A DNA stretch of 64,000 nucleotides from an uncultured Verrucomicrobiota bacterium (GTDB lineage: Bacteria; Verrucomicrobiota; Verrucomicrobiia; Opitutales; Seribacteraceae). Location: NCBI GenBank assembly GCA_902612125.1, contig CACMBV010000010.1, forward strand, positions 1 to 64,000. Reading direction: 5' to 3'. Within the stretch, counting starts at the first letter, position 1. Each line of letters begins with the position of its first letter. The position numbers were made by a program, and so were the translations under genes. Below the pieces are notes generated by a model, which saw nothing but the letters and a program-made list of their open reading frames with translations, had not been told where the DNA came from and searched no databases. Positions 7,374 through 40,318 of the stretch are shown piece by piece.

Positions 7374-7376
7374 TCC

Positions 7377-9296: not shown

Positions 9297-9396
9297 TTGG
9301 GGTGGAATTGTTTGAACTCCAAGGTGGATCACCCATTGCAGACTGGCTATTTTACAAACGCAATAGTGTTGTTACCAAAAAATTGACAAAAATCCT

Positions 9397-9426
9397 TTGA
9401 CATAGGTACTGGTCATTTCGTTATAA
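9397..9426 (+). promoter_or_regulatory. Candidate sigma-70 promoter of the HNH gene
   Basis: TTGACA at 9397-9402 and TTATAA at 9421-9426 are spaced by 18 bases, close to consensus. A second TTGACA lies at 9383-9388. The -10 box ends only 10 bases before the ATG at 9437, so an mRNA from this promoter would have a very short leader or none. Confidence 0.5.
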
Positions 9427-9436
9427 CGGATACAGG

Positions 9437-10024: not shown

Positions 10025-10037
10025 TTTACATTTTTGA

Positions 10038-11789: not shown

Positions 11790-11792
11790 GTT

Positions 11793-14603: not shown

Positions 14604-14675
14604 TCAAATGAGCGAGATTAAACCATTGTGGATTGGAATTGCCTCCTTAATGAATTTAAAATAGCAAACAGACTA

Positions 14676-16163
14676 ATGTATCTATTCCCATCTGGTCTTA
14701 GGAAGAACTTACACTTTCTGTTTTTCTTGAAGTTGACACTTTTTACTTTTGGTGAACCGTTTTTGACCCCCAATGATCCATTTATTCGTCACGAGATTCG
14801 ATTGCTGAGTGATGAAGGGGGCTTCAATGGTTTGCAAAATAGCTGGCCTTTGGATTTGGGTAGAATTAATCTGGGCTTACAGGAATCTGAATACAACAGC
14901 GAACTTCTCGACAATCTTCTTTCGGATGAGTCGAATTCCGGATGGTCTTCCATATTTACAACAATTGGCTTGGCTGATGATCGAGTTATTGCACGCGGGT
15001 TTAGCTCGAAACCAAGATCCAGTTTTGCCACCAATGCATCAGTCTCGTGGATGAATGATCGTTTTGCAGCGAAGTTATCCCTCAACGCATTCTATGGCAT
15101 GGAAAGTGACTGGAAGGGAAGGGCGGATGAAGGTTTTGCTCTAGATGGATCCTACATTGCCGCCAGATTGGGAAATTGGTCGGCGAGTTTTGGTCAGCAG
15201 GAACGCTGGTGGGGGCCGGGTTGGGATGGTAGTTTGATTCTTTCCACCAATGCCCGCCCTATTCCCGCCATTTCCATCGATCGCCGTATCGCTGAGCCTT
15301 TTGAGACCAAATGGTTGTCTTGGATTGGCCCCTGGAGCTTTCACTCCTTTATTGGTAGGATGGAGGAAGAGAGGACGGTACCGAAACCCTACCTTTGGGG
15401 AATGCGGGGGGAAGTTAAGCCAACTATCTTGGGTGGTCTTGAGATTGGCTTCTTTCGGATGATGCAATTAGGCGGAGATGGTCGCCCGGAAGGATTTAAC
15501 ACATGGGTCGATGCTTTTTTAAGTCAGGACAACTATGGTGCAAACACAGGAAACAATGACCGATCAAAGGAACCAGGCAATCAATTAGCAGGCATTGATC
15601 TCAGGTGGCAACCATTCGATTCTACATTTGCTCTTTACGGACAAGTAGTCGGGGAAGACGAAGACAAGTTCCTTCCGAATTGTCTGATGTTCCAGTACGG
15701 AATTGAAGCATGGACAAATCTAGAAGATTCCACTCTGAGAGTATTTGCGGAATTTGTAGACCTTACCTCTTACTGGTGGACCGATGATTCCCGAACACGG
15801 AACATCACCTATGGCCATCACATTTATAACGACGGCTATCGCTATCGGGGTCGACCTGTTGGACACTGGGCCGACCAAGATTCCCAAATTCTAAGCATTG
15901 GGGTTCTTCTTCATCAAGTTGACGGGATCGGGTGGGCGGCAATTGGGCGTATTGGAGATTTAAATGAAGACGGTATCGGAGAAAGCACTGTCGCTAATGG
16001 TACCACCTCTGAATATTTCTCCTTCGATATTTTGAACTCACGAGAATATCCAAACTACAATTTATCAGTTAGTACCTCAATAGGATGGGAGAGCATAGAA
16101 CCGATGGGCAGAGGCACCGAAGATGGATTGGCGGGATATTTGACTTTAACAAGAATGTTTTAA
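14676..16163 (+). CDS. Capsule assembly Wzi-like outer-membrane protein
   Basis: Predicted outer-membrane beta-barrel of the Wzi family, which tethers capsule polysaccharide to the cell surface. After a signal-peptide-like N-terminus (hydrophobic LHFLFFLKLTLFTFG) comes the family start PNDPFIRHEIRLLSDEG. The body shows alternating strands with WWGPGWDGSLILSTNARP, IGPWSFHSFIGRMEEE and a terminal aromatic strand ending in Phe. The ATG at 14676 was chosen because it places the signal peptide first; a GTG at 14628 would add 16 residues. It opens the polysaccharide locus, 16 bases ahead of the exporter gene. Confidence 0.78.
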   Translation: MYLFPSGLRKNLHFLFFLKLTLFTFGEPFLTPNDPFIRHEIRLLSDEGGFNGLQNSWPLDLGRINLGLQESEYNSELLDNLLSDESNSGWSSIFTTIGLADDRVIARGFSSKPRSSFATNASVSWMNDRFAAKLSLNAFYGMESDWKGRADEGFALDGSYIAARLGNWSASFGQQERWWGPGWDGSLILSTNARPIPAISIDRRIAEPFETKWLSWIGPWSFHSFIGRMEEERTVPKPYLWGMRGEVKPTILGGLEIGFFRMMQLGGDGRPEGFNTWVDAFLSQDNYGANTGNNDRSKEPGNQLAGIDLRWQPFDSTFALYGQVVGEDEDKFLPNCLMFQYGIEAWTNLEDSTLRVFAEFVDLTSYWWTDDSRTRNITYGHHIYNDGYRYRGRPVGHWADQDSQILSIGVLLHQVDGIGWAAIGRIGDLNEDGIGESTVANGTTSEYFSFDILNSREYPNYNLSVSTSIGWESIEPMGRGTEDGLAGYLTLTRMF

Positions 16164-16179
16164 ATTTTCTCACTTTCAT

Positions 16180-18804
16180 ATGAATTCACTATCCAAGTTT
16201 CTACCTATCCTGATTGGAATTTTCTCCCTAAACTTTTTGTACGCTCAGTTTGATCCTTCGGTTATGTCATCTCTTTCTAAATTACCCCGAGAAGAAAGGG
16301 AAAGACTGATCAAAAAATATGGGAGTGGGAATGTTCAACCGATCAATTTTTTGCAAAAGTCGAATCAGAAGGAAGACATAATTGAAGACGATGAAGCAGT
16401 AAAATCATCAAACGATCAAGACAATCTAAACAATCCTTCTGAAAATCTGAGAGAAATGGAGCAGCAGATCTCCGAGGATATTGTAAGATTGGAAGTTTCC
16501 ATTGCTAATGAAATTTCTGAAAATGAGAAAAGTGCAACTCAGGATGTGCTGAGAAAAAGCAAAGTGCTTCTGGCGAAAATAAAAGAACTGCAGCGATTGG
16601 AAATTCAAAAATACACCAAAGAATTGGAATCGGTTTCTTCTTCATCCAACTTATTTCCGTTTGGTTATGATATTTTTTCCTCACTTGCAACTGATACTGA
16701 TAATTATGGAGCCCCCATCCCATCTGATTATCGCGTTGGACCTGGAGACTTAATTGAGATTCAACTATTTGGACAAAAGAACCAATCCTACAGTTTGGAA
16801 ATCTCAAGGGAAGGAATTATGCGATTTCCTGATATTGGCCCAATCAATGCCTTTGAAAGAGGGACTTCATTCATCGATCTCAAAAATCTATTGAAGGAAA
16901 AGATTCGCGAAAATCTTGGAGAAGGAGTACAAAGCTCGATTACATTGGGGGCTTTTCGAAGCATCCGAATTTTTCTTTTCGGAGAGGTCGAGAAGCAGGG
17001 GGCTGTGAATGTGAGTGCTTACACATCTTTGATTAACGCTCTCCTAAGCTGTGGTGGAATCAAAGAAACGGGAAGTTTACGCAATGTTCAATTAAAACGC
17101 TCTGGGGAAACCGTTGCTACTCTGGATCTCTATGATCTCTTACTTCGAGGCGATACAAGTGGGGATTTGGTGCTGCAACCAGGTGATGTTATTTTTGTTC
17201 CAGTCATTAAAAACCAGATAGCAGTCAGCGGAGCTGTTCGACGTCCTGCTAAATATGAGACTTTAGAGGAAGAAACCTTGCAGAATGTAGTCGATCTTGC
17301 TGGTGGCACAACAGATCGTTCTATGTTAAGCAGAATACGAGTCGAACGACTAAATAACAATTTTCAACCTGAAGTTAGAAACTTTAACTATCAAGAAAAC
17401 AAAGAAGCAAAAATCCTGTCAGGCGATCGTATTTCAGTCGGTGTTGCAAGTGTCAACATTAGAAATGTTGTTACCATCGTCGGACCTGTAGAAAATAATG
17501 GAGAATATGAGTGGAGAGAGGAACTCTTATTATCTGATTTAGTTGTTAGTTCGGATAGTCTACTTCCGGAAATTGATCTGGATTATGGTTTAATACAAAG
17601 AAAAAAGATCGACGGTACCTTTCATTGCCTGTCTTTTCGGCCGAGTTGTCTGTTTGATTCTAAAATACAGATACCGTTGAAAGAGCAAGATATTGTTTAC
17701 TTTTTTAAGAGAGAACCACGTGGTGACGCGTTAAAGAACTTGTTATCCGACATTCGCAAGCAAAGCAGTGCTGGAGAAAATTCAAGATTGATTAAAGTTT
17801 CTGGGGCAGTTCATTTTCCGGGTGAATATCCGTTTACTGATTCTATGATGCTTGCTGATTTAATCCGTGCCGCGGGAGGCACCAAAGATTCTGCGTATTT
17901 GATGGATGCAGAGATTACCCGTCTAGGCATAGATGAGGAACAAAAAGCCTTTGTTGAGCACCTGAAAATAGACCAGAGTGTGCTGATAGATAGTAACCGA
18001 TCACAAGACTATCTTCTTAAGCCATATGACTCACTCTCTATTAAGCCGATACCTTTATGGCGAGAAGGGGAAAGTATTGAAATTAGCGGTGAAGTTAATT
18101 TCCCTGGCACTTACTCCATCAAGCTGGGGGAAACTCTCTTCGATGTGATTCAGCGAGCTGGAGGATTGACGGATCGAGCTTTTCCAGATGGGACGATTTT
18201 TTCCCGTGAAAATCTTCGAGTTAAGGAGGATGAACAAAGAGAAAGGTTGATCAAACAACTGGAATCTGATCTTGCCACGGCAACTCTCTCCGCAACTGAT
18301 TCAGAGGAAGCAGCAAAAGCTCAGTCAGCGGCTCGGGCTATGTTGTCTAGGCTTCAAAATACTGAATCTCAGGGAAGATTAGTCATTGATTTAAATAAAA
18401 TCTTAAAGGATGCAGAGCGTTCAGATTTATTAGTTAAGGATCAGGATAATCTTCTAATACCTTCAGCTCCTTACGCAGTCAGTGTATCTGGCGAGGTTCA
18501 GTTCCCTACATCTCATTTACATGATGAAAAGCTGGACTTAGATGACTATCTCAACCGGAGTGGTGGTTACACTCAAAATGCCGATAAAGATCGTACCTTT
18601 GTGGTCAAAGCAAATGGTGCTGTTACGAGTAAAGGGGGAAACGGTTGGTTTGGCAAAGGTTCCGGTGGAAACAACATTTCTCCGGGGGATGTCATCGTGG
18701 TTCCGATTGATGTTCAACAAACCCGTTTTCTTGAAAACCTGACTTACAGCACCCAAATTATATACCAATTGGCAGTTGCCGCTGCTGCTGTTAATTCGTT
18801 TTAG
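16180..18804 (+). CDS. Polysaccharide export protein with multiple SLBB domains (Wza-like)
   Basis: Periplasmic/outer-membrane export protein of 874 aa with a signal peptide cleaved near LNFLYA-QF. A coiled-coil-rich spacer (about residues 85-150) leads to the Poly_export domain, marked by YRVGPGDLIEIQLFG. Repeated SLBB domains follow; their starts can be read at VFLFGEV-like FLFGEVEKQGAVNV, ISGEVNFPGTYSI and SVSGEVQFPTSHL. At about twice Wza length it resembles the large SLBB exporters of Bacteroidetes/Verrucomicrobia type. No lipobox is seen. It would form the channel for the polymer made by the downstream genes. Confidence 0.83.
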   Translation: MNSLSKFLPILIGIFSLNFLYAQFDPSVMSSLSKLPREERERLIKKYGSGNVQPINFLQKSNQKEDIIEDDEAVKSSNDQDNLNNPSENLREMEQQISEDIVRLEVSIANEISENEKSATQDVLRKSKVLLAKIKELQRLEIQKYTKELESVSSSSNLFPFGYDIFSSLATDTDNYGAPIPSDYRVGPGDLIEIQLFGQKNQSYSLEISREGIMRFPDIGPINAFERGTSFIDLKNLLKEKIRENLGEGVQSSITLGAFRSIRIFLFGEVEKQGAVNVSAYTSLINALLSCGGIKETGSLRNVQLKRSGETVATLDLYDLLLRGDTSGDLVLQPGDVIFVPVIKNQIAVSGAVRRPAKYETLEEETLQNVVDLAGGTTDRSMLSRIRVERLNNNFQPEVRNFNYQENKEAKILSGDRISVGVASVNIRNVVTIVGPVENNGEYEWREELLLSDLVVSSDSLLPEIDLDYGLIQRKKIDGTFHCLSFRPSCLFDSKIQIPLKEQDIVYFFKREPRGDALKNLLSDIRKQSSAGENSRLIKVSGAVHFPGEYPFTDSMMLADLIRAAGGTKDSAYLMDAEITRLGIDEEQKAFVEHLKIDQSVLIDSNRSQDYLLKPYDSLSIKPIPLWREGESIEISGEVNFPGTYSIKLGETLFDVIQRAGGLTDRAFPDGTIFSRENLRVKEDEQRERLIKQLESDLATATLSATDSEEAAKAQSAARAMLSRLQNTESQGRLVIDLNKILKDAERSDLLVKDQDNLLIPSAPYAVSVSGEVQFPTSHLHDEKLDLDDYLNRSGGYTQNADKDRTFVVKANGAVTSKGGNGWFGKGSGGNNISPGDVIVVPIDVQQTRFLENLTYSTQIIYQLAVAAAAVNSF

Positions 18805-27776: not shown

Positions 27777-29240
27777 TTGAAGTCCGAATTAAAAATAAAT
27801 AAAATACTAAAATCAATTGGTAAGAACAGTTTGATTTACGGAACCTCAACCGCACTTCAACCTCTTGGAGGGTTTATACTTTTACCTCTTTATTCTGATT
27901 ATTTCGAAAAATCTGAGTTTGGAATTTATACCCTTATTTTACTTATTTCTACTATATTTAGCACAGTATTTCATTTAGGTATAAATTCTGCGTTTATTCG
28001 CTCTTATTATGATTATGATTTGGAAGAAGACCGTGTCAAAGTGTTCAACACTTCCTTGTTTATTTTGTTAATTGGACTTTTCCTACAAATACTTACATGT
28101 TTTCTTGCTAAAAATATTCTTTCAGTATCGATCTTGAAGGATGAAAGTTATGTCAAGATTTTAACTATTTCTGTAATAACATCTGGTGTTGGCTTTGTTA
28201 ATACGGGTCTTTTGAATTACTTAAGAGTTAAGGAGAAAGCGCTAAAATATACACTTGTGAGTTCTTTTTCATTAGTTATAAATATTACCTTAACCTTATA
28301 TCTTTTCGAATATTTTAGTAAGAGTATTAATTCGCCAATATATTCTGCTTTATTCAGCCAATTTTTAACACTACTTTTGCTGATATTAATACATATTAAA
28401 GACATAAACTTATTTAATATAAATAAGTCGGAAATTAAAACCTTACTGCATTTTGGTTTGCCTTCAATTTTAGCAGGCAGTGCTATTATGATTGGGGAGT
28501 GGGGTGATAAGTTATTAATAAATGAATTTCTTCATAAGGATGAACTCGGAATTTTTTCTATGGGATTTAGAATTGCGATGATTTACAATGTAATTGTAGC
28601 TATGCCATTTGCTCTAGTTTGGAATCCATTAATGATGAAAATTCGAGCACATAGCAATGCCAAGTACATTTTTAGCCGAGTAGCATATCTTTATTTCGCG
28701 TTTAGTTTAATTTTTATTTTTGCAACCTATGTTATTCTTGAACCTATTCTTACGCTTTTGGGATTTCACTCAAAATTCTATGACTCATTAAATTATGTTC
28801 CCTTATTGATGATGGCACTTGCATTGGGTAGTTTGCAAAACATTTATTCTGCTGGTATTACATTCGCCAGAAAGCCAATAATTTTCGCTTTCATTTACTC
28901 GGTTGTTGGCTGTGCAAATTTCTTGATATCTTATTATGCTATCATCAAATATGGAATTTACGGGATAGTCATTACCTTTATTTTGTTCAAATTTATTATT
29001 TCTATTACAATCTATTATTTTTCTTCTAAACATTTCAGCTTTCATATTTTTGACTTTGGATATGTAAAGCTAATTACTTTACTTTTTGCAGGTATTTTTC
29101 TTTATATGAATTATTTCACTTACTATAACTCCTTTGTTTTTTTATTTTTTTATGTACTTATTTACTTTTTATTTTTATTTAAAGAAGAAATTTTACATAT
29201 TATTACTCGCCTTATAAAGGTATCTAGATCTAATACATGA
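27777..29240 (+). CDS. wzx: Polysaccharide flippase, Wzx/MATE-like
   Basis: Integral membrane protein of 487 aa with roughly 12-14 hydrophobic segments. It begins IGKNSLIYGTSTALQPLGGF, a typical start for PST/Wzx flippases, and carries the conserved mid-protein GEWGDKLLINEFL segment. It would move undecaprenyl-linked repeat units across the inner membrane. TTG at 27777 is the likely start. It is the first intact gene of the AT-rich cassette and overlaps the carbamoyltransferase start by 4 bases. Confidence 0.85.
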   Translation: MKSELKINKILKSIGKNSLIYGTSTALQPLGGFILLPLYSDYFEKSEFGIYTLILLISTIFSTVFHLGINSAFIRSYYDYDLEEDRVKVFNTSLFILLIGLFLQILTCFLAKNILSVSILKDESYVKILTISVITSGVGFVNTGLLNYLRVKEKALKYTLVSSFSLVINITLTLYLFEYFSKSINSPIYSALFSQFLTLLLLILIHIKDINLFNINKSEIKTLLHFGLPSILAGSAIMIGEWGDKLLINEFLHKDELGIFSMGFRIAMIYNVIVAMPFALVWNPLMMKIRAHSNAKYIFSRVAYLYFAFSLIFIFATYVILEPILTLLGFHSKFYDSLNYVPLLMMALALGSLQNIYSAGITFARKPIIFAFIYSVVGCANFLISYYAIIKYGIYGIVITFILFKFIISITIYYFSSKHFSFHIFDFGYVKLITLLFAGIFLYMNYFTYYNSFVFLFFYVLIYFLFLFKEEILHIITRLIKVSRSNT

Positions 29241-31048
29241 CATATACTTTAGGATTATCTGCATACTATCATGATAGTGCAGCTTGTATATTGAAAAATT
29301 CAGAAATTGTTGCAGCTGCACAAGAGGAAAGATTTACCAGAATTAAACACGACGCAGGTTTTCCTCTTGAGGCTATTAGATATTGCTGCCAAGAAGCGGG
29401 AATCACTTTTTCAGATATCAATTTAGTCGGATATTATGAAATCCCTAAACTTAAATTGGATCGATTGACAAAAACATTTGAACACTATGTTCCTTTGGGT
29501 TTTGATGCTTTTTCCAATGCGATCTCTAAGTGGGTTGGCGGAAAAGGTGATGTTAGAAATGAAATCCGTAATCTTTTCCCCAATGCATCGATTCATTTCA
29601 ATGAGCATCATCAATCTCATGCGATGTCAGCTTATTATCCTTCCCCTTTTGATGATTCCGCTATTTTAACAATCGATGGGGTTGGAGAATGGGCAACTAC
29701 AACCGTTTCACATGGCATCGGAAATGAATTAAAAATTTTAAAGGAGCTTCATTTTCCGCATTCTTTGGGACTCCTTTATTCAGCATTTACCGCGTTTACA
29801 GGTTTCAGAGTTAACTCTGGTGAATATAAGGTTATGGGTTTGGCTCCTTACGGTGAAGCTAAGTATGCTCAAAAAATCTTTGATGAATTAATCGATATTA
29901 AAGAAGATGGATCGTTAAGGCTGAACATGCAATACTTCTCTTTTCCTTATTGCACTGAAATGACAAACGATAAATTTGCTAATTTATTCGGTGGTCCCGG
30001 AAGACAGGCTGAATCAGATTTGACCCAAAGGGAAATGGACTTAGCTAGGTCAGTACAGGTTGTAGTGGAGGAGGTCGTTCAGCGAATGGCTGGTCATGCA
30101 TTTGAAATCACAAAAAGCCAAAACTTATGTCTTGCTGGTGGGGTTGCTCTTAATTGTGTTTCCAATGGTAAATTACTAAAATCTAAAATATTTAAAAACA
30201 TTTGGATTCAACCTGCCTCTGGTGATGCTGGAGGAGCTTTGGGGGCTGCCTTTGGAGCATACTTTAAAAATAATCAACGAAAGCGTTCTGCTGAAAAAAA
30301 TGATTCTATGAAAGGATCTTTTCTTGGTCCTAAATTTTCTGCAAGAGAGATTTCTGAATTTTTACGAGTAAGGTCCATAAAACACATACATCTAGATGAT
30401 TCTAATTTATTTTCGAAGGTAGCAGAAATCATTTCTGCAGAAAATGTAGTTGGATGGTTTCAAGGCAGGATGGAATTTGGGCCACGAGCATTGGGTAATC
30501 GTTCAATTTTGGGTGATCCCAGATCTTGCCGCATGCAAGAGGTAATGAATTTAAAAATAAAATACAGAGAAAGTTTCAGGCCTTTCGCTCCGGCCGTTCT
30601 TGCTCATAAGCAGGCTGAATGGTTTGATTTTGATTCTGAAAGTCCCTACATGCTTTTGGTTGGAGACATCCTTAAGAAACATCACATTGATGTAGCTTCC
30701 GGTAAAGATCTTTTTGGAATCGAAAAACTCAAAGTTCCTAGATCCAGCATTCCTGCAGTTACGCATGTTGATTATTCAGCTAGAGTTCAAAGCGTTGACG
30801 AAAAAAGAAATCCGCTTTTTTATAAGTTAATATCTGAGTTCGAAAACCTAACTGGTGTCCCAATTTTAATTAACACATCATTTAATGTTCGAGGAGAACC
30901 TCCAGTATGTTCGATTGAAGATGCATATACTTGTTTTATGCGTACTGAAATGGATTTTTTAGTTATGGGAAATTTTATACTGGATAAGAAAGAAATGAAT
31001 ATGGAAGATGTTGATCATGATTGGAGAAAGGAGTTCGCTCTTGATTAG
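29237..31048 (+). CDS. Carbamoyltransferase, NodU/CmcH family
   Basis: 603-aa enzyme that transfers carbamoyl from carbamoyl phosphate to a sugar hydroxyl. The N-terminal Kae1-like domain starts LGLSAYYHDSAACIL and has the metal-binding His residues in HHQSHAMSAYY. The C-terminal domain shows GRMEFGPRALGNRSILGDPR and the FNVRGEPPVCS segment. Length and motifs are complete. It is coupled to the flippase upstream and to a tiny membrane protein downstream, followed by an SGNH hydrolase: a carbamoylated sugar and further tailoring of the exported polymer are likely. Confidence 0.9.
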   Translation: MTYTLGLSAYYHDSAACILKNSEIVAAAQEERFTRIKHDAGFPLEAIRYCCQEAGITFSDINLVGYYEIPKLKLDRLTKTFEHYVPLGFDAFSNAISKWVGGKGDVRNEIRNLFPNASIHFNEHHQSHAMSAYYPSPFDDSAILTIDGVGEWATTTVSHGIGNELKILKELHFPHSLGLLYSAFTAFTGFRVNSGEYKVMGLAPYGEAKYAQKIFDELIDIKEDGSLRLNMQYFSFPYCTEMTNDKFANLFGGPGRQAESDLTQREMDLARSVQVVVEEVVQRMAGHAFEITKSQNLCLAGGVALNCVSNGKLLKSKIFKNIWIQPASGDAGGALGAAFGAYFKNNQRKRSAEKNDSMKGSFLGPKFSAREISEFLRVRSIKHIHLDDSNLFSKVAEIISAENVVGWFQGRMEFGPRALGNRSILGDPRSCRMQEVMNLKIKYRESFRPFAPAVLAHKQAEWFDFDSESPYMLLVGDILKKHHIDVASGKDLFGIEKLKVPRSSIPAVTHVDYSARVQSVDEKRNPLFYKLISEFENLTGVPILINTSFNVRGEPPVCSIEDAYTCFMRTEMDFLVMGNFILDKKEMNMEDVDHDWRKEFALD

Positions 31049-32306: not shown

Positions 32307-33053
32307 ATGTTACTTGGTTCATGGATACAGTTTAGCCAACAGGCTCATGCGGAAATTTTAGCGAAAGCCGGATTTGATTGGCTTGCAGTCGATCTTGAGC
32401 ACAGTGTTATAAGCATAAAAGAAGCTGAAGATCTGGTGCGAATCATTGAGCTTTGCGGTGTAGTTCCTTTTGTGAGAATGTCCTCGAACAACCCTGTGCA
32501 GATTGCCAGGATTATGGATGCTGGTGCTCACGGAGTTATCGTTCCGATGGTTAACACTAAACAAGAAGCACTAAAAGCAGTAGAATCAGTTTTTTATCCT
32601 CCAAAGGGCAAGAGAGGGGTGGGGTTAGCCAGAGCACATGAATATGGTGCAAGATTTGAAGATTACCGGCAATGGCTGAAGGAAAATGGAAAGGTAATCG
32701 TACAAATTGAAAATATCGAGGGAGTTAAAAATCTCTCAGAGATTTTCTCTGTCGAAGGCGTTTTCGGTTTTATTGTAGGACCTTATGATTTATCCTCTTC
32801 ATTAGGAATTTCTGGACAATTAGACCACCCCATTATGATAGATACTCTTAGGGAAATTAATGAAGTTGCATCACAATTTCCTCACATTAAGAAAGGGGTG
32901 CATAAAATTTCGATAAATCCACAACCAGTTTTGGATGCTATTGAAGATGGTTACGATTTGATCGCTTATTCTACAGATATGCTATTCTTGGGAGACTCGT
33001 GCAGGAATGGCATACAAGAAATAAAAAAAGTTCTCAGCAATAGAAGTTTATAA
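32307..33053 (+). CDS. HpcH/HpaI-family class II pyruvate aldolase
   Basis: 248-aa TIM-barrel aldolase that would make or cleave 2-keto-3-deoxy acids from pyruvate and an aldehyde. Landmarks are FDWLAVDLEHS near the start, PFVRMSSNNPVQIARIMDAG, GVIVPMVNT and the metal-binding VQIENIEGV. Close relatives include 2-keto-3-deoxy-L-rhamnonate and 4-hydroxy-2-oxo-heptane-dioate aldolases. With a KdsB-like cytidylyltransferase nearby it could replace a PEP-dependent synthase (KdsA/NeuB type), none of which is seen in the window. Fold secure; biosynthetic role inferred. Confidence 0.82.
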   Translation: MLLGSWIQFSQQAHAEILAKAGFDWLAVDLEHSVISIKEAEDLVRIIELCGVVPFVRMSSNNPVQIARIMDAGAHGVIVPMVNTKQEALKAVESVFYPPKGKRGVGLARAHEYGARFEDYRQWLKENGKVIVQIENIEGVKNLSEIFSVEGVFGFIVGPYDLSSSLGISGQLDHPIMIDTLREINEVASQFPHIKKGVHKISINPQPVLDAIEDGYDLIAYSTDMLFLGDSCRNGIQEIKKVLSNRSL

Positions 33054-33060
33054 TATTTAT

Positions 33061-33630
33061 ATGAAACAATGGATTTCTAATTATATCAATGAGTACAAAC
33101 GTGTGCTTGATGCAATACCTGCTGATCAAGTTGAAGCGATTATCTATAAATTTAAGAATTGTTTAAGCAATGATTCACAAATTTTTGTTATCGGAAATGG
33201 TGGTAGTGCTGCAAATGCATCGCATTTTGTAACTGATTTAGGCAAAGGCTCGTCTGATGCAGTTGGCAAAAGATTTCGCTGCATGTCATTGAACGATAAT
33301 GTCGCATGGATGACCGCATTGGGGAATGACTACTCCTACGCGGATGTTTTTCAAAAACAGATATCCAATTTTGCGAGACCAGGAGATTTACTTATCATTT
33401 TGAGCGTAAGTGGTAATTCGCCTAATGTTGTAAAGGCTATTTCATGGGCTAAAGACAACGGAATTAAAACTTTGGCATTGGCTGGTGGTCAGTGTGGTAA
33501 GATTACAGAGATTGCAGATGAAAGCCTAATCATTGATTCAAAACATTATGGACATGTTGAGGATGCTCAAATGACAATTGCTCACATTCTTTGCTATGCA
33601 TTTATGGAAAATAATGATCTTGTGGATTAA
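33061..33630 (+). CDS. SIS-domain sugar isomerase, GmhA-like
   Basis: 189-aa SIS-fold protein resembling sedoheptulose 7-phosphate isomerase GmhA. Conserved parts are IFVIGNGGSAANASHFVTDL, LSVSGNSPNVVKAI and the C-terminal HVEDAQMTIAHI helix with the catalytic His. GmhA normally makes D-glycero-D-manno-heptose 7-phosphate. The other heptose genes (HldE/HddA) are not in the window, so this may be a paralogue working on another ketose phosphate in this pathway. It starts 7 bases after the aldolase. Confidence 0.82.
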   Translation: MKQWISNYINEYKRVLDAIPADQVEAIIYKFKNCLSNDSQIFVIGNGGSAANASHFVTDLGKGSSDAVGKRFRCMSLNDNVAWMTALGNDYSYADVFQKQISNFARPGDLLIILSVSGNSPNVVKAISWAKDNGIKTLALAGGQCGKITEIADESLIIDSKHYGHVEDAQMTIAHILCYAFMENNDLVD

Positions 33631-33709
33631 GGGATTTTGACTCTCTTTTTAAAGTAAAATTAAAGAATCTGAGATCAGAAATGCATCAATTCATGACCAA
33701 TATTTGAAC

Positions 33710-34651
33710 ATGGTCAGGGAGGACGCTTTGGCATACTTTAGCGATCCAGGTCGTTGCGAAGAAATTAATTGTCCTGCATGCTCTTGTGATCAAACCGTTT
33801 TTGAGTTTGAGAAATTTGGATTTAATTACCATTCGTGTCCGGACTGCGGTACACTCTTCGTCAATCCTCGACCCAAATTAGTTTTTTTGGAAGACTTTTA
33901 TGTTAATTCACCTTCGAGTCGGTTTTGGGCAGAAGAATTCTTCAAACCAGTTGCAGAGGCAAGGAGAGAGAAAATCTTTCGGCCTCGTGCTAAACATTTC
34001 AATAATTTAATTACAACAGACGATGAAATTACCGTAGGTGATATCGGTGCTGGCTACGGTCTTTTTTTAGAAGAATTGTCAAAACTCAGAAAAAATGTTC
34101 GTCCATTTGCGATAGAGCCAAGTCCTGAAATGGCGGCAATTTGCAAGACTAAGAATTTTGAGGTACTTGAATCTATTATCGAGAAAATTGAAGGATATGA
34201 TTCAAGCTTTGATTTTTTATGTTCTTTTGAATTATTTGAGCATTTACACACCCCAGCAACCATGCTGACTGCAGCATTTAAGTTACTCAAGCCAGGAGGA
34301 TCTCTGCTATTAACCACACTTAACGGCAAGGGTTTTGATATTCAGCTTTTGTGGGAGAAGTCGAAATCTGTATTTCCTCCCCATCATTTAAATTTTTGTA
34401 GCCCAGATTCTCTATCTCTTCTTCTAAATAAAGTTGGATTTGAAGTTCTCGAGGCCGAAACACCCGGTGTTTTGGATTGGGATATTATTGAGGGAAATAT
34501 CAAAAGAGATCAGTTTTCTGCCGATCGATTTTGGAACTCAATTGCTGATCATGCCTCAATCGAGTGCAAGCAGGATCTTCAGTCTTGGATTACTAAACAC
34601 AAGCTCAGTTCACATATGCGATTAGTTGCCAGAAAGCCGATCCAATCATGA
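33710..34651 (+). CDS. Class I SAM-dependent methyltransferase with N-terminal zinc ribbon
   Basis: About 313 aa. Two CxxC pairs (CPACSC and CPDCGT, about residues 22-46) form a zinc ribbon, followed by a Rossmann methyltransferase core: VGDIGAGYGLFLEEL (motif I), then LFEHLHTPATML and LKPGGSLLLTTLN. Such zinc-ribbon methyltransferases are frequent in polysaccharide clusters. Target unknown; a sugar O- or C-methylation is likely. ATG at 33710 was chosen over a TTG at 33704. It overlaps kdsB by 4 bases. Confidence 0.75.
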   Translation: MVREDALAYFSDPGRCEEINCPACSCDQTVFEFEKFGFNYHSCPDCGTLFVNPRPKLVFLEDFYVNSPSSRFWAEEFFKPVAEARREKIFRPRAKHFNNLITTDDEITVGDIGAGYGLFLEELSKLRKNVRPFAIEPSPEMAAICKTKNFEVLESIIEKIEGYDSSFDFLCSFELFEHLHTPATMLTAAFKLLKPGGSLLLTTLNGKGFDIQLLWEKSKSVFPPHHLNFCSPDSLSLLLNKVGFEVLEAETPGVLDWDIIEGNIKRDQFSADRFWNSIADHASIECKQDLQSWITKHKLSSHMRLVARKPIQS

Positions 34652-35406
34652 AATCTAAAATTGTAGCTGTAATTCCCGCTCGCATGGCTTCTTCTCGATT
34701 GCCAGGGAAACCTTTGTCTAAGATTTGTGGTTTAACTATGATTGAGCATGTTCGCAGAAGGGCAGAACTTTCTGAATTTTTGGAACAAGTAATCGTGGCC
34801 ACTTGTGATCAGGAAATTTATAAAGAAGTAAAGAGACACGGGGGACAAGTTGTAATGACATCTGATCGCCATGAGCGCTGTACGGACCGAGTTGCTGAGG
34901 CTGTTAAGAACTTCGAAGCGGATATCGTTGTTAATATTCAGGGAGATGAACCATTCCTGGATCCTCAGCATATAGATGCATTAGTTAAACCCTTGTTGGC
35001 AGATAATTCCTTAGAATGCTCTAACTTAATTGCTCAAATTCCGTCTGAATTTGCAGATAACCCAAATCTTGTAAAAGTAGTTTTTGATAAGCAAGATCGT
35101 GCACTTTATTTCTCCAGAGAAGCTATTCCATCACGAAAAAAATCAGGAAATCTTCCTGTTCAATTTTTTAGGCAGCTGGGTATAATAGCATTTCGAACTG
35201 CATTCCTTGATCGTTTCTTGACTTTGAATGCCACCCCTCTAGAGGCAATTGAATCATGTGATATGATGAGAGCTGTGGAGCATGGGATTGAAGTGCGAAC
35301 GGTTGCAGTTAAATTTGATAAGTTTGGGGTGGATACTCCAGAGGATCTTGATTCAGCCAACTTGGCAATGCTAACAGACCCCATTTTAAAACTTTACAGT
35401 TCTTGA
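34648..35406 (+). CDS. kdsB: 3-deoxy-manno-octulosonate cytidylyltransferase-like (KdsB family)
   Basis: 252-aa CMP-sugar synthetase. VAVIPARMASSRLPGKPL is the CTP-binding signature, with VIVATCDQ, MTSDRHERCTDRVAEA and VVNIQGDEPFL, all as in KdsB. It would activate a 2-keto-3-deoxy sugar acid with CMP. Housekeeping KdsB serves lipopolysaccharide, but here it lies inside the AT-rich cassette, is coupled to a methyltransferase and sits near an aldolase. A second, cassette-specific KdsB acting on a modified ulosonate is therefore likely. Confidence 0.88.
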   Translation: MKSKIVAVIPARMASSRLPGKPLSKICGLTMIEHVRRRAELSEFLEQVIVATCDQEIYKEVKRHGGQVVMTSDRHERCTDRVAEAVKNFEADIVVNIQGDEPFLDPQHIDALVKPLLADNSLECSNLIAQIPSEFADNPNLVKVVFDKQDRALYFSREAIPSRKKSGNLPVQFFRQLGIIAFRTAFLDRFLTLNATPLEAIESCDMMRAVEHGIEVRTVAVKFDKFGVDTPEDLDSANLAMLTDPILKLYSS

Positions 35407-35407
35407 T

Positions 35408-36457
35408 TTGAGAAAGCAATTTAAGGTTGGTATTGCTGGCTACGGTGTAGTTGGCAAAAGAAGGCAAAAATATATTGAGCAGCACCCTGCACTTGAAGTG
35501 GTTGCCGTATGTGATGTAAATTTTTCAAGTAAGGGCATCTTCGATAACGGAGTAAAATTTTTCACTAACTACACTGATTTAATTAAGGAGTCCTTGGATA
35601 TTTTATTTGTGTGCTTACCAAATTTTCTCGCAGCAGAAGTAACAATAGCCGGACTCGATGCGAATTTTCATGTTTTTTGTGAAAAGCCGCCTGGTCGTAC
35701 ACTTGATGATATTGCTCGAGTTATAGAAGCAGAAAAATGCAAAAGTGGTCTTTGTCTAAAATACGGATTTAATCATCGTTACCACCATTCGATTAGGGAT
35801 GCACTGTCCATCGTTCAATCGGGTGATTTAGGTGAAGTTGTGGATCTTCGGGGTGTGTACGGAAAATCAAAGATTATTAGTTTCGATTCTAGCTGGAGAA
35901 CAAAAAGAGAACTATGTGGTGGTGGAATTCTTTTGGATCAAGGAATTCATATGGTTGATATGATGCGCCTGTTTGCTGGAGAGTTTTCCGAAGTACACAG
36001 TTTCATATCGAATAAATTTTGGAATCATGATGTAGAGGACAACGCTTATGCAATTATGAAAACGAGAAACGATGTGGTAGCGATGTTGCACTCATCAGCA
36101 ACCCAATGGCGACATCGTTTTCAGTTGGAGATTACACTGTCTAAAGGACAAATTATTTTGGATGGTATACTATCTGGTTCCAAAAGCTATGGTGCCGAAA
36201 CTTTAACAATTGCATATGCATCTGAAAATGATGCTGGGGAACCCCTTGAAAAAACTACAAAGTATAATGAAGACCCTTCTTGGAAAGACGAAATCGATGA
36301 TTTTGCCGATGCTATAATAACGGGTAGAAAAGTGGTCGATGGATCGTCTCTCGACGCATTTAAAACTATGCAACTCGTCTATCAAATTTATTGTGCAGAT
36401 ATAGATTGGAAATTAGCACACGATCTATCTGCTGTACCTGCAATTAATTCACAATGA
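35408..36457 (+). CDS. Gfo/Idh/MocA family oxidoreductase
   Basis: 349-aa NAD(P)-dependent sugar oxidoreductase with VGIAGYGVVGKRRQKYI, the family EKPPGRTLDD motif in the catalytic region, and DQGIHMVDMMRLF later. Substrate unknown. TTG start directly after the kdsB stop, and a 4-base overlap with the next gene, place it firmly in the same operon. It is not closely similar to the WbpB-like protein encoded at 22838. Confidence 0.8.
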   Translation: MRKQFKVGIAGYGVVGKRRQKYIEQHPALEVVAVCDVNFSSKGIFDNGVKFFTNYTDLIKESLDILFVCLPNFLAAEVTIAGLDANFHVFCEKPPGRTLDDIARVIEAEKCKSGLCLKYGFNHRYHHSIRDALSIVQSGDLGEVVDLRGVYGKSKIISFDSSWRTKRELCGGGILLDQGIHMVDMMRLFAGEFSEVHSFISNKFWNHDVEDNAYAIMKTRNDVVAMLHSSATQWRHRFQLEITLSKGQIILDGILSGSKSYGAETLTIAYASENDAGEPLEKTTKYNEDPSWKDEIDDFADAIITGRKVVDGSSLDAFKTMQLVYQIYCADIDWKLAHDLSAVPAINSQ

Positions 36458-36933
36458 TTTATGGTACATTATCCCATTCTAATCAGCTCAGGATGTTATG
36501 CAGTAATGAAACTTGGAAAGAGGCATTTGATTGGTTAGGTAATTTACTTCCTGACTCACCTTGCGGCACTGAAGAACGACATGATGGCAAATTTAAACTC
36601 AGTATCGATTCTTATTCTACCAAAGCATTTAAAGATTGTAGATTTGAAAGTCATCGTGAGTTCATTGACATCCAGTTTTGTCTGTCGGGTGGTGAATTTA
36701 TTCATTCTACCAATCATCTTAACTTAGAACTGGATGGTCATTACACAGCATCTGGAGATGTTCAGTTTTACAAAACTCCTGAAGTGCGGAAAGAGGTCGT
36801 TCTCCAAATGGTATGGGGAACTTATGCTATTTTTTATCCGGAAGATGCACACTGCCCTCAAGTTGCAGACATGCATAATCAACATTCAAAAAAGGTTGTT
36901 CTAAAGATTCATCGCAATTTGCTTGAATCATAA
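36454..36933 (+). CDS. YhcH/YjgK/YiaL family protein (NanQ-like)
   Basis: 159-aa beta-sandwich protein of the DUF386 family. The core SHREFIDIQFCLSGGEFI and the metal-binding end IFYPEDAHCPQ are visible. E. coli YhcH/NanQ acts on sialic acids and helps open the ring form for the aldolase NanA. A member beside a pyruvate aldolase and a CMP-ulosonate synthetase suggests handling of the cyclic and open forms of a 2-keto-3-deoxy acid. Family call firm; role inferred. Confidence 0.83.
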   Translation: MIYGTLSHSNQLRMLCSNETWKEAFDWLGNLLPDSPCGTEERHDGKFKLSIDSYSTKAFKDCRFESHREFIDIQFCLSGGEFIHSTNHLNLELDGHYTASGDVQFYKTPEVRKEVVLQMVWGTYAIFYPEDAHCPQVADMHNQHSKKVVLKIHRNLLES

Positions 36934-36944
36934 AAAAATTCTTT

Positions 36945-37652
36945 GTGAAGAGAGTATTAATTACAGGCGCTAGTCGTGGCATAGGTGAAGGAATTGCAAA
37001 ACGATTTTCTGCCGAAGGTGCCTATGTAGTCGGCACTGCAACAAAGAAACCTGAATTGGAACAAGGATTTATCAATCAATGGATTGAAGCTGACTTTTCA
37101 TGTAATCAATCTTTGGAATATTATTGTAACTGCTTATCAGGATTGGAAGGATTTGACATCTGTATTAACAATGCCGGTATCAATATTATTAAACCTTTGG
37201 AAGATGTATCATCTAAAGATTATTTTAGAATCCAAAAAATCAACCTAGAATCTCCATACCTCATCTCTCGTGCATTGGTAAGTGGAATGAAATCTCGTGG
37301 TGGTGGTAAAATCATAAACATTGCTTCAATTTGGGGATGTATTACCAAAAAGCATCGATCTCTTTATTCCACTATGAAAACAGGTATCGTTGGGATGACT
37401 CGTGCTCTAGCCGTTGAGCTAGCTCCTTCTAATATTCTCGTTAATGCGGTTTCGCCTGGTTTTACGATGACTGACTTGACTAAAAATTCGCTCAGTATTG
37501 AGCAAATTAATTTGCTAACAAAAGATATCCCTTTGGGCAGGTTTGCTGAGGTAGATGAGATTGCATCAATTGTTACTTTTCTTGCGAGCGAACAAAATAC
37601 CTATTTAACAGGTCAAAATATTGTAGTTGATGGTGGATTTACTACCATCTAA
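36945..37652 (+). CDS. Short-chain dehydrogenase/reductase
   Basis: 235-aa classical SDR: cofactor motif ITGASRGIGEGIAKRF, the INNAGIN strand and the C-terminal NILVNAVSPGF and LTGQNIVVDGGF. The catalytic Tyr-x-x-x-Lys is in HRSLYSTMKTGIVGM, preceded by Ser in INIASIWG. GTG start at 36945. Part of the ulosonate-like operon; substrate unknown. Confidence 0.83.
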   Translation: MKRVLITGASRGIGEGIAKRFSAEGAYVVGTATKKPELEQGFINQWIEADFSCNQSLEYYCNCLSGLEGFDICINNAGINIIKPLEDVSSKDYFRIQKINLESPYLISRALVSGMKSRGGGKIINIASIWGCITKKHRSLYSTMKTGIVGMTRALAVELAPSNILVNAVSPGFTMTDLTKNSLSIEQINLLTKDIPLGRFAEVDEIASIVTFLASEQNTYLTGQNIVVDGGFTTI

Positions 37653-37665
37653 TGAACCTTTTTTT

Positions 37666-38730
37666 ATGAACATTAAATCTTACAAAGGTAACTATCATAT
37701 TCATTTTACTGATTGTTTTTTAAGTAGTCTAAAATCTGAAGCAAAAACGGAAGATATTTTTTTAATTGATGAAAATGTTTGGCATCTTTATCGGAAGCAA
37801 TTTTCATATTTTGAAAAATCTAATTCTATTATCTGTCTCCCATCGGGAGAGAAAACTAAGAGTTTTGATGCCGCAGGAAAATTGATTTTCGATTTGATGG
37901 AACTTGGTTTCAAGAGAAATCATAGACTCATTGCTGTTGGTGGAGGAATTGTTCAAGACGCGGTTGCTTTTGTTGCTTCGATTCTCTTTAGGGGGGTAGA
38001 GTGGATTTTTGTACCAACGACCTTATTGGCACAAGGCGATAGTTGTATAGGGAGTAAAACTTCTGTAAATTTTGATAATTACAAAAATCTACTTGGCGGT
38101 TTTTATCCACCTTCCAATATATATATTGATGCTGCTTTTCTTGACACTCTAAGCGATCATGAAATTAGATCTGGCTTAGGTGAGATGCTTCATTTTTTTA
38201 TGATTGGCGGACGGAGCGACTTTGAAATTTTTAGAGATAACTTTGAGCATTGTTTCGATGATAAGAATGCAATTAAAAAGCTTACTGAGCGTAGTCTTGA
38301 AATCAAAAAAGAGATGATTGAGCGTGACGAGTTTGATGAAGGACCCAGGAAAGTTTTTAACTACGGACATACATTTGGGCATGCGTTGGAAGGTATTACT
38401 AATTATCAGATACCTCATGGTATCGCAGTTTCCTATGGTATGGACATGGCAAATAAAGTATCTGTTTATCTTGGATTACTTGAGGAAAATATTGCTTTGG
38501 AGAGTCGAAAACTACTTTCTCAGGTTTGGGGAAATACAGTTTTCCCCAAAATTGATACCAAAGAATACCTTAACTTATTATCTAAAGATAAAAAGAATGT
38601 GGGGAGCAAACTTAACCTGATTTTAACCAGCGGATGGGGAAATATGTTCATGCAAGAAGTAATTCCGGATGAAGGATTTTCAGAACTAGTTAATCAAATT
38701 CTTAATTTTTACTATTCAAATAATAATTAG
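37666..38730 (+). CDS. 3-dehydroquinate synthase-like cyclase
   Basis: About 354-aa member of the AroB/DOI synthase/EVS superfamily, which uses NAD and a metal to cyclise sugar phosphates. Visible are the NAD loop AVGGGIVQDAVAFVAS, FVPTTLLAQGDSCIGSKTSVN, RSGLGEMLHFFMI and the metal-binding NYGHTFGHALEG. The usual DHQ synthase has GGGVVGDL and KxAVN; here the loop is GGGIVQD and S-V-N, so a non-shikimate substrate is likely. The ATG at 37666 gives a normal N-terminus. Lying among 2-keto-3-deoxy acid genes, it could act on a DAHP-like intermediate. Confidence 0.8.
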   Translation: MNIKSYKGNYHIHFTDCFLSSLKSEAKTEDIFLIDENVWHLYRKQFSYFEKSNSIICLPSGEKTKSFDAAGKLIFDLMELGFKRNHRLIAVGGGIVQDAVAFVASILFRGVEWIFVPTTLLAQGDSCIGSKTSVNFDNYKNLLGGFYPPSNIYIDAAFLDTLSDHEIRSGLGEMLHFFMIGGRSDFEIFRDNFEHCFDDKNAIKKLTERSLEIKKEMIERDEFDEGPRKVFNYGHTFGHALEGITNYQIPHGIAVSYGMDMANKVSVYLGLLEENIALESRKLLSQVWGNTVFPKIDTKEYLNLLSKDKKNVGSKLNLILTSGWGNMFMQEVIPDEGFSELVNQILNFYYSNNN

Positions 38731-38735
38731 AATCG

Positions 38736-39539
38736 ATGAATTTTTGGAAAAATACTGCTACACTTGATGCTCTGGTTCCCGAATTGCTCGATACCGTCGA
38801 AGCCGCTGAAGCAGAGATTGCGGTAATTGGCGGTAAACCGATTGACCTTGCATCAATGCCTAAGTTAAAAATCATCTTCAAGTGTGGTGTGGGAGTAGAT
38901 AATATTCCATTTAAAGAGGCGGAAAAAAGGAAAATAGAAGTTATCCTGCCATCTGAAGCTACCAAAAGGTTTATTTTTGAAGAGACAGCAAACTTCGCGG
39001 TACATTTAATTATTCAAGCACTTTACAGAGATTTGGGCTCGGTTGAAATATGGGAGAAAAAACTGAGACCTTTCCTTGGTGATTACAAGGTACTTGTACT
39101 TGGGCAGGGAAATATTGGAAAACAGGTCGCAGATAAGTTAAATCCTTTGGTTGCCGTTAGTACCTACGATCCTCTACAAAACTCTGAGGAAGAACTCGAA
39201 GAACTATTTAAGCAGTCAGATGTTATATCTCTTCATATCCCTCTAAATGAGCATACCTTGTCTTTTGTTGATGAAGAAAAGCTTAGTTGGATGAAAGATG
39301 GTGCTACCCTTGTAAACACTGCAAGGGGGCCAATTGTTAACGAAAATGCACTACACAACGAAATTAAAAACGAAAGACTTTGTGCCGCATTTGATGTGTT
39401 TTGGGACGAACCATACGGTGGGATGTTGAAAGCATTTCATCCTGATGGGTTTTATATGACTCCCCATGTGGCTAGCAATTGTAGTAATTTCCTTGAGGGT
39501 CTTGCGGAAGATTTCAAGAATCTTCAGAATAAGTTATGA
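38736..39539 (+). CDS. D-isomer-specific 2-hydroxyacid dehydrogenase
   Basis: 267-aa NAD-dependent dehydrogenase, short for the family (usually 310-330). The dinucleotide motif LVLGQGNIGKQVADKL, the VDNIPFKEAEK substrate region, ARGPIVNENAL and the final catalytic His in TPHVASNCSNF are present. It may reduce or oxidise a 2-keto/2-hydroxy acid in the pathway. The N-terminus appears trimmed by about 40 residues compared with typical members, though the fold core is intact. Confidence 0.78.
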   Translation: MNFWKNTATLDALVPELLDTVEAAEAEIAVIGGKPIDLASMPKLKIIFKCGVGVDNIPFKEAEKRKIEVILPSEATKRFIFEETANFAVHLIIQALYRDLGSVEIWEKKLRPFLGDYKVLVLGQGNIGKQVADKLNPLVAVSTYDPLQNSEEELEELFKQSDVISLHIPLNEHTLSFVDEEKLSWMKDGATLVNTARGPIVNENALHNEIKNERLCAAFDVFWDEPYGGMLKAFHPDGFYMTPHVASNCSNFLEGLAEDFKNLQNKL

Positions 39540-40318
39540 AAATTTATCAATCAAGTTTCCACACTGTTAAATTTACAGATCTGGAGGTTGACTGGGAGAG
39601 ATACTATTTACAAAGACCTGACAAAATTTTTTTTGAGAAAGTATACGAGAAGTGGGCTTCAATCGATAATGAACTATTGGATGAGAAAAACTTCACAAGG
39701 GCGAAAAAATCACATGCAGTGAAAATTCATGAGCTTTTTCAAAATCAAAGAAAAATTTTATCTATTGGGATTGGAAATGGAATCACCGAATCCGAACTAC
39801 TAAATATGGATCCATCTTACGAAATAAATGGGGTTGATTTTGTTCGAGACAAAAGATGGGATTCTAGAATTCAATATTTTAATAATTTAAAGGCATGCAA
39901 TGGCTTCTCCTATGAAGGAATATTATTAAATAGCGTCATATACAATTTTTCAGATACAAAGTTAAGTGATCTTGTCTCTTCCTTGCATAAGATTGTTGTT
40001 GAAGGAGGTAAGGTCATTGTTTGGGACCAAGATCTACCAACATTAGCTGATTTAAAGGAGATTAAACGCAGGCACTCTAGGTTACCCAAGAAAGGTAAGG
40101 GAGTTGTTCTCTGGGGTGAATTAAGATCACCATCTAAAATAAAAAATTTTTTTAGGAAGAAGTTCCGTCATATCGAAAGTAAATACTACTATGTCGGTCA
40201 TGATCTCCAGGATCACGAGACCAAACCCTTTTTTAGAATAATGGGTTATAAAATATGGCAGAGTAAAGATTTTCACGCTAACACATCACAATTGCATATT
40301 TTTAAGAAAATTAATTAA
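39536..40318 (+). CDS. SAM-dependent methyltransferase-like protein
   Basis: 260-aa protein with a degenerate class I methyltransferase core: ILSIGIGNGITESELL resembles motif I, YEINGVDF the acidic loop, and VVEGGKVIVWDQDLP the post-motif strand. Overlaps the dehydrogenase by 4 bases. Substrate unknown. Its C-terminal third is strongly basic (PSKIKNFFRKKFRHIESK). Confidence 0.55.
   Translation: MKIYQSSFHTVKFTDLEVDWERYYLQRPDKIFFEKVYEKWASIDNELLDEKNFTRAKKSHAVKIHELFQNQRKILSIGIGNGITESELLNMDPSYEINGVDFVRDKRWDSRIQYFNNLKACNGFSYEGILLNSVIYNFSDTKLSDLVSSLHKIVVEGGKVIVWDQDLPTLADLKEIKRRHSRLPKKGKGVVLWGELRSPSKIKNFFRKKFRHIESKYYYVGHDLQDHETKPFFRIMGYKIWQSKDFHANTSQLHIFKKIN

Follow-up and report, generated by a model that had tools for sequence, protein, structure and literature searches.

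A gene set for a putative CMP-activated ulosonic-type acid in a marine Verrucomicrobiota bacterium, with counterparts in Bacteroidota and viral contigs

The first 64,000 nucleotides of contig CACMBV010000010.1 (assembly GCA_902612125.1; this whole stretch is referred to as the window) come from an uncultured Verrucomicrobiota bacterium of the family Seribacteraceae, and carry at positions 32307-39539 a gene set by which this marine bacterium most likely, judging from gene families, builds an acidic sugar activated with cytidine monophosphate (CMP) for its surface coat. Eight of the genes encode an HpcH/HpaI-family aldolase (ALD), a SIS-type sugar-phosphate isomerase (SIS), a KdsB-family CMP-transferase, a Gfo/Idh-family oxidoreductase (Gfo), a YhcH/NanQ-like protein (YhcH), a short-chain dehydrogenase (SDR), an AroB-like protein of family TIGR04425, and a D-2-hydroxyacid dehydrogenase (HADH). 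We give this cassette an even chance of making a CMP-activated ulosonic-type acid other than 3-deoxy-D-manno-oct-2-ulosonic acid (Kdo) for the surrounding surface polysaccharide. An earlier note on this DNA had proposed a 3-deoxy, possibly methylated acid made by a pyruvate aldolase; the gene set proved real and unusual and the idea of a new CMP-activated acid was kept, while the aldolase origin, with partial support, and the 3-deoxy nature and methylation are not established.

A conserved gene set in two phyla and in viral contigs

All nine open reading frames (ORFs) at 32307-39539 are contiguous and on the forward strand, and their families were verified with Pfam and NCBIfam profiles (Table 1); the earlier note had named the families and the contiguity correctly, and had counted eight genes while listing nine. 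The closest parallel in content is L285, a locus labelled Bacteroidota, as is L282, through the sampling scheme (drawn by phylum from the genome of L014 and then by order from G648). On its minus strand, within 6252-12556, ALD (12556-11801), HADH, Gfo, SIS, SDR, AroB-like, YhcH, and a CMP-transferase (to 6252) follow one another with short gaps or overlaps as a single tight operon, i.e., the same eight families as in the window, all eight Pfam-verified, with the AroB-like protein over the TIGR04425 cut-off (424.3 bits). Identity to the window proteins is 37% for the aldolase, 35% for SIS, 29% for HADH, and 25% for YhcH, the gene order differs, and a NeuA-like CMP-transferase replaces KdsB. Because the eight families stay together despite this divergence, functional linkage is favored over a recent transfer as one block, and the gene set looks like a real pathway rather than a chance neighborhood. 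Beside its main set, L282 carries (14089-18178) an aldolase, a HAD hydrolase gene and a GAPDH/erythrose-4-phosphate-dehydrogenase-like gene, as well as second genes for a CMP-transferase and HADH.

We compared 16 clusters, consisting of the window and 15 others (the near-copies L008 and L009 were excluded), in stretches of 10-20 kb. Seven are bacterial, of which five belong to Verrucomicrobiota (the window, L047, L188, L189, and L190) and two to Bacteroidota (L282 and L285), and nine are IMG/VR viral contigs (L090, L104, L115, L129, L137, L138, L191, L192, and L195). With counts that are biased by the HADH, Gfo or AroB-like anchors through which the clusters were found, and with profiles partly trained on the same clusters, HADH is present in 15 of the 16 (the exception being L104), SIS in 14 (not in L115 and L191), a CMP-transferase in 13, an AroB-like gene in eight, YhcH in five, all bacterial, and an IMPase-family gene in three, never together with an AroB-like gene. 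The HADH-Gfo-SIS unit is near-universal; it is what clusters of the window's type share most constantly, and it defines that type. Gfo relatives are neighbors of HADH and SIS in both phyla and in viral contigs. The genes stay together in related genomes of the two phyla, and neither refuting condition of the earlier note (a set never kept together in relatives, or a sole KdsB working with a distant kdsA) held.

As a control, we used 80 viral loci anchored on the nucleoside diphosphate (NDP)-sugar-dehydratase-like polysaccharide gene of L064. They contain HADH once (L221, on the contig of L192), Gfo six times, SIS nine times, a CMP-transferase 10 times, a class III aminotransferase six times, and an AroB-like gene three times (L249, and L201 and L234, which are on the contigs of L064 and L081 in the test set). 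The short HADH is rare, being found in five of 387 Verrucomicrobiota and one of 247 Bacteroidota genomes (E 1e-55) by a search that does not pick up long HADH proteins such as that of L285. The window HADH is 65% identical to the copy in L047; those of L285, L191, L115, L129, and L195 are of a longer, distant type (68-141 bits, 28-29% identity to the window protein where compared). The Arg/Glu/His positions, which we take to be catalytic, are retained. Among solved structures, phosphoglycerate dehydrogenases are the best HADH relatives, the family also including a probable 2-ketogluconate reductase, and the Gfo relatives are inositol and aldose oxidoreductases.

Genes for putative transferases also occur in these and related clusters: DUF115/MptE-like proteins, which we presume to be linked to nonulosonate transfer, score over the cut-off in L188 and L047 and below it in L190 and L192, and a GT29-like protein is found in L062 (26.3 against 23 bits). 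Together with the CMP-transferase and YhcH counts, these nearby genes fit a CMP-activated ulosonic-type acid, and comparative genomics supports the claim that the acid is a new one.

The cluster KdsB differs from ordinary KdsB

Enzymes of the KdsB/NeuA kind attach CMP at the C2 hydroxyl of 2-keto sugar acids; the excerpted text of PMC3149649 describes this for KdsB and assigns Kdo binding to its C-terminal domain. The cluster protein belongs to the KdsB family by TIGR00466 (Table 1) and is not the only copy in the source genome (G000; 2.41 Mb, 84 contigs, 63.8% complete), as a second, ordinary KdsB over the cut-off lies on contig C3, flanked by one ORF read as trpB and another read as an LptF/G-like permease gene. 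A TIGR00466 search of 12 genomes found two full copies in G000 and G559 and one, the cluster copy, in the incomplete G569. Among the nine genomes without a cluster KdsB, eight have one copy over the cut-off and G453 has a split match under it; two of the nine, G172 and G140, hold other TIGR04425 clusters (L047 and L046, respectively). KdsA (TIGR01362) is over the cut-off in 10 of the 12 genomes, with no match in G569 or in G000 at its 63.8% completeness. No KdsA is present among the nine genes, nor was any other phosphoenolpyruvate (PEP)-dependent synthase seen there, as had been noted before; the one DAHP_synth_1-family gene listed for G000 lies on another contig and is read from its sequence as an aromatic-pathway synthase of 3-deoxy-D-arabino-heptulosonate 7-phosphate (DAHP).

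In an alignment of 13 ordinary rows (12 distinct) with four cluster-copy rows from three lineages, the cluster copies deviate at 12 columns that are invariant in 13 of 13 ordinary rows (P30, D53, S77, G78, H to Q at 176, Y to I at 180, Y to F at 182, LEQL to CDMM at 204-207, and I216), seven of which fall at 176-207 in the C-terminal part. At further columns they deviate from 12 of the 13. Conservation of the Kdo pocket, with the individual contact residues being those that we take to bind Kdo, is thus lacking relative to all 13 ordinary rows. These 12 columns and the C-terminal position of the Kdo-binding domain suggest that the sugar pocket of the cluster enzyme has probably changed, while by family the protein is still a CMP-transferase. 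The CMP-transferases of the other clusters are NeuA/PseF-like, and those that were scored fall under the PseF cut-off. The CMP-transferase of bacterial L047 has a fused cupin domain.

The AroB-like enzyme

NCBI describes TIGR04425 as “AroB-related putative sugar phosphate phospholyase (cyclizing),” a hypothetical equivalog, and we know of no activity for this family. The window protein scores under the aroB (3-dehydroquinate synthase) cut-off (284.1 against 305 bits) and does not group with AroB in a tree of 108 tips, in which one branch (support 0.996) splits 86 TIGR04425-type proteins from 21 AroB-type proteins and one 2-deoxy-scyllo-inosose synthase (DOIS), for which a single named, annotated match served as the reference; EEVS and EboD are outside this tree, and one of the 21 tips taken as AroB-type, L054, is without the usual residues. 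L054 (contig C16 of G569, the genome of L008) has H, A, D, and E at the positions of K250, R264, N268, and K356, and may be another sugar phosphate cyclase paralogue.

With AroB active-site numbering as we presume it to be, 12 of 13 positions are invariant in all 83 TIGR04425 proteins, and K197 is replaced by H in the window. R264, K250, and N268, which we take to be the substrate contacts holding the DAHP carboxylate, are retained in 83 of 83; DOIS lacks R264 and N268, with G and E in their places. As these carboxylate-holding residues are retained, our best guess is that the substrate resembles heptulosonate 7-phosphate.

The family is sparsely distributed. Five of the 387 Verrucomicrobiota genomes sampled have a match of at least 362 bits, the next being 273 and the lower ones read as ordinary aroB, and four of 233 genomes in an order-level sample match at E 1e-95 or better. 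Five Bacteroidota matches at 29-32% identity were discarded (those in the genomes of L012 and L014 score 180-201 bits, far under the TIGR04425 cut-off); the flanks of these five loci hold no further match to 19 proteins of the window. Among the plasmid matches listed (40 of 115, 15 of 2574, and 12 of 114), identity is at most 36%, and we read them as plain AroB, generic dehydrogenases/aldolases or bacterial DNA. INPHARED phage records (2 and 15, at most 36% identity) were set aside as plain AroB, generic enzymes or bacterial DNA.

Two kinds of viral modules around the SDR/AroB-like pair

A scan of IMG/VR, whose contigs may include host DNA, gave 112 AroB-like relatives, of which 80 with 35-47% identity were kept. 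In a flanking-protein test of 10 contigs, phage replication, packaging or nucleotide families are clear in six (L090, L137, L056, L095, L104, and L105), L192 has a weak phage match, and none was found for L064, L191, and L115. An SDR occurs with the AroB-like gene in 74 of the 80 viral loci, which, like the other viral counts, include near-identical contigs. This pair is the most widely reused one, and had previously been under-weighted.

The pair occurs either with a CMP-transferase and SIS, often together with a class III aminotransferase (29 of the 80 viral loci; CMP-type examples are L062, L064, L192, and L125), or with a thiamine diphosphate (ThDP) enzyme. At 90% identity, the 83 AroB-like proteins reduce to 69 loci, i.e., the viral loci together with L008 and L045-L048 insofar as their proteins fell into clusters. 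A CMP-transferase alone is present in 34 of them, a ThDP enzyme alone in 31, both in two, and neither in two (Fisher P 6e-15, with kinship ignored); the window lineage (L008) was scored as lacking a CMP-transferase in this count, as its KdsB falls outside that protein cluster. Position 197 of the AroB-like protein partly follows the same division: it is K in 31 of 31 ThDP-only loci and H in 28 of 34 CMP-transferase-only loci, although these are not independent counts, since the change partly follows the tree. It is K in 21 of 21 AroB-type proteins and H in the window and L285. GT29-like or MptE-like genes are also seen in the CMP-type viral modules (L062, L064, L192, and L125), and in L191 an FGGY-family carbohydrate kinase gene (11939-13090) directly follows the AroB-like gene.

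Among the 33 ThDP loci, an aldolase-like gene (ALD2) is present in 20 and a NeuB-like gene in 10, never both, with neither in three, and we read the two as alternative routes to one kind of 2-keto acid. Their presence with AroB-like genes in 30 of the 33 loci ties the AroB-like enzyme to 2-keto acid formation. The ThDP module (L083, L091, L093, L099, L105, L108, L095, L101, and others) contains the ThDP enzyme, SDR, and AroB-like genes, often an RfbH-like DegT gene, and ALD2 or NeuB-like genes. RfbF/RfbG-like genes occur in L105 and in bacterial L045, and this module may make a branched sugar.

Proposed pathway and alternatives

The pathway that we infer, in its substrates, step order and product alike, would begin with SIS converting a ketose phosphate to an aldose phosphate. 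A 2-keto acid could then arise by the HpcH aldolase adding pyruvate in the clusters that have one (this family also uses hydroxypyruvate as an alternative donor), or, in clusters without an aldolase, by Gfo oxidizing C1 and HADH oxidizing C2. The AroB-like enzyme would remove phosphate from the ulosonate phosphate by oxidation and elimination, and SDR would reduce the product; some clusters without this pair would use an IMPase-family phosphatase instead. The IMPase-family genes in three clusters lacking an AroB-like gene suggest this role, and the AroB-like enzyme may act at the phosphate-removal stage. YhcH, the presence of which suggests an acid with anomers, would equilibrate these, and the KdsB-like (elsewhere NeuA-like) enzyme would make the CMP-sugar for use by a transferase.

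Several observations weigh against this pathway. Ring closure, the normal outcome of AroB chemistry, would destroy the 2-keto group, and the window carries ALD as well as Gfo/HADH, a redundancy if each of them produced the 2-keto acid. The long-type HADH may represent another enzyme of its family. No CMP-transferase was found in L189, L191, and L195 (the latter two end at the contig end), and neither an AroB-like nor an IMPase-family gene within the stretches of L190, L137, L138, L192, and L195, the contig of L192 having an AroB-like gene just outside the stretch (seen in L125). Most viral loci with an AroB-like gene and a CMP-transferase have no aldolase, NeuB or Gfo/HADH within the stretch, and the assignment of ALD2 to the HpcH type has one marginal Pfam match (L045, 27.2 against 25), with none for L116.

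A possible, if doubtful, alternative is that the aldolase joins pyruvate to an aldose (phosphate), giving a 2-keto-3-deoxy acid that the KdsB-like enzyme activates and that Gfo, HADH, SDR, and the AroB-like enzyme tailor. The window ALD has HpaI (4b5s) as its best solved relative, and the His/Arg/Glu/Asp positions, presumably catalytic as in HpaI, are intact in the window, L285, and L282; the window lineage pairs ALD with a KdsB-type transferase, known KdsB substrates are 3-deoxy acids, and the 2-keto acid genes of the ThDP loci point in the same direction. On the other hand, with the window protein as sole seed and within 10-20 kb, ALD was found in three of the seven bacterial clusters (the window, L282, and L285) and not in L047, L188, L189, L190 or the nine viral stretches, all of which otherwise retain a good part of the set, and a scan of viral sequences with the window aldolase gave no relative. 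Given this distribution, the aldolase has partial support as the defining maker of the acid, less than had been claimed, and the 3-deoxy nature is not established. Nor is methylation: searched for at E 1e-6, the methyltransferase (33704-34651) lacks a counterpart in all 15 of the other clusters, and it is probably an accessory gene outside the conserved set.

It is unlikely that the AroB-like enzyme is a true cyclase, with a carbocyclic quinate-like acid (a carba-ulosonate) as the product that the CMP-transferase activates. All examined AroB positions except K197 are retained and the NCBI name includes “cyclizing,” as this would predict; yet the anomerase-like YhcH is present in three AroB-like clusters (the window, L047, and L285), while a carbocycle has no anomers, and the IMPase clusters, which have no AroB-like gene, retain a good part of the remaining set. 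A broader version, in which phage-borne and bacterial AroB-like cyclases alike would give a carbocyclic acid and then a CMP-carbasugar moved by sialyltransferase-like enzymes, is improbable in our judgment, and if true would establish a new class of nucleotide-activated building blocks. A duplicated KdsB that lies by chance in a polysaccharide locus and serves ordinary Kdo synthesis would fit the TIGR00466 score and the occurrence of Kdo in many capsules; this reading was rejected as highly improbable given the second KdsB copy, KdsA in relatives, the altered pocket residues, and the NeuA/PseF-like enzymes of the other clusters.

Relation to known systems

The ulosonic-type pathway proposed above resembles the CMP-Kdo pathway (KdsD, KdsA, KdsC, and KdsB) in its SIS-type isomerase, 2-keto acid, phosphate removal, and KdsB-family activation. 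It differs in having no recognized KdsA or KdsC, with the aldolase, Gfo, HADH, AroB-like, SDR, and YhcH proteins instead, in the changed KdsB pocket, and in the ordinary KdsB retained elsewhere in the genome. Related clusters share NeuA/PseF-like CMP-transferases, YhcH/NanQ-like proteins, and GT29-/MptE-like putative transferases with the nonulosonic acid pathways (N-acetylneuraminic, pseudaminic, and legionaminic acids), whereas the window cluster lacks NeuB, and to our knowledge those pathways use neither an AroB-like enzyme nor a HADH/Gfo unit. In the Kdo8N pathway of Shewanella, KdnA and KdnB, an aminotransferase and an iron alcohol dehydrogenase, modify the KdsB substrate; such extra genes are a likeness, although their families are not those of the window.

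With the sugar phosphate cyclases (AroB, DOIS, and EEVS), the AroB-like protein shares its family and active site, but TIGR04425 stands on a branch separate from AroB-type proteins and DOIS and has CMP-transferases or ThDP enzymes as its partners. An AroB homologue that likewise serves outside aromatic synthesis is EboD of the ebo operon, as presented in the excerpted text of PMC5133447. A parallel with bradyrhizose was considered and gave no link, its biosynthesis genes being given as unknown in the portion of PMC4743980 that was available. No paper describing this gene set was recognized in our searches of the open PMC literature, an absence only as strong as those searches.

CMP-activated acids (Kdo, sialic, pseudaminic, and legionaminic acids) are few and biologically important, and a further pathway would mean one more acidic sugar among surface glycans. 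If true, it would also give a function to TIGR04425, and imply that a CMP-transferase can draw its substrate from a shikimate-type enzyme, an HpcH aldolase, and a Gfo/HADH pair.

Gene features and surroundings of the cassette

Two window proteins fall short of the equivalogs that they resemble. SIS, the best solved relatives of which are phosphoheptose isomerases (5i01 and 1tk9), scores under the GmhA (D-sedoheptulose 7-phosphate isomerase) cut-off (114.8 against 209.45 bits), and YhcH is over the cut-off of the broad family TIGR00022 (65.0 against 45.5) and under that of the N-acetylneuraminate anomerase NanQ (65.6 against 160 bits).

Table 1. Genes of the nine-gene stretch and a possible decoration gene upstream, with coordinates in the window and profile matches.
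Predicted product	Coordinates	Strand	Profile match
HpcH/HpaI-family pyruvate (2-keto acid) aldolase, ALD	32307..33053	+	PF03328, 108.7 bits
SIS_2 sugar-phosphate isomerase, GmhA-like	33061..33630	+	PF13580, 71.7 bits
Methyltransferase, MT1	33704..34651	+	PF13489
KdsB-family CMP-transferase	34648..35406	+	TIGR00466, 180.4 bits (cut-off 155.2)
Gfo/Idh-family sugar oxidoreductase	35408..36457	+	PF22725/PF01408
YhcH/NanQ-like (DUF386) protein, putative sugar-acid anomerase	36454..36933	+	PF04074, 98.9 bits
Short-chain dehydrogenase (SDR), partner of the AroB-like gene	36945..37652	+	PF13561
AroB-like putative sugar-phosphate phospholyase/cyclase	37627..38730	+	TIGR04425, 423.7 bits (cut-off 400)
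Short D-2-hydroxyacid dehydrogenase, HADH (267 aa)	38736..39539	+	PF02826, 110.8 bits
NodU-type carbamoyltransferase, possible decoration gene	29237..31048	+	NodU-like, 137 bits (equivalog cut-off 1000)

The cassette is flanked by carbamoyltransferase-like, sulfotransferase, DegT, and glycosyltransferase genes, and by ORFs read as Wzx-like and SGNH-like, neighbors that point to a polysaccharide locus as its setting. A NodU-type gene also lies near the cassette in viral cluster L115 (12856-14553, 391 bits). Two near relatives, Verrucomicrobia AG-919-G08 (L008) and casp15-mb.89 (L009), have the same gene order. A second methyltransferase type, MT2, is represented by one ORF in the window (39536-40318) and two MT2-like ORFs in L008 (12023-13514), with no match between HADH and the sulfotransferase gene in L009. 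Two NeuB-family genes lie outside the cassette on contigs C6 and C7 of the source genome (L006 and L007), and other nonulosonic acids may be made there too.

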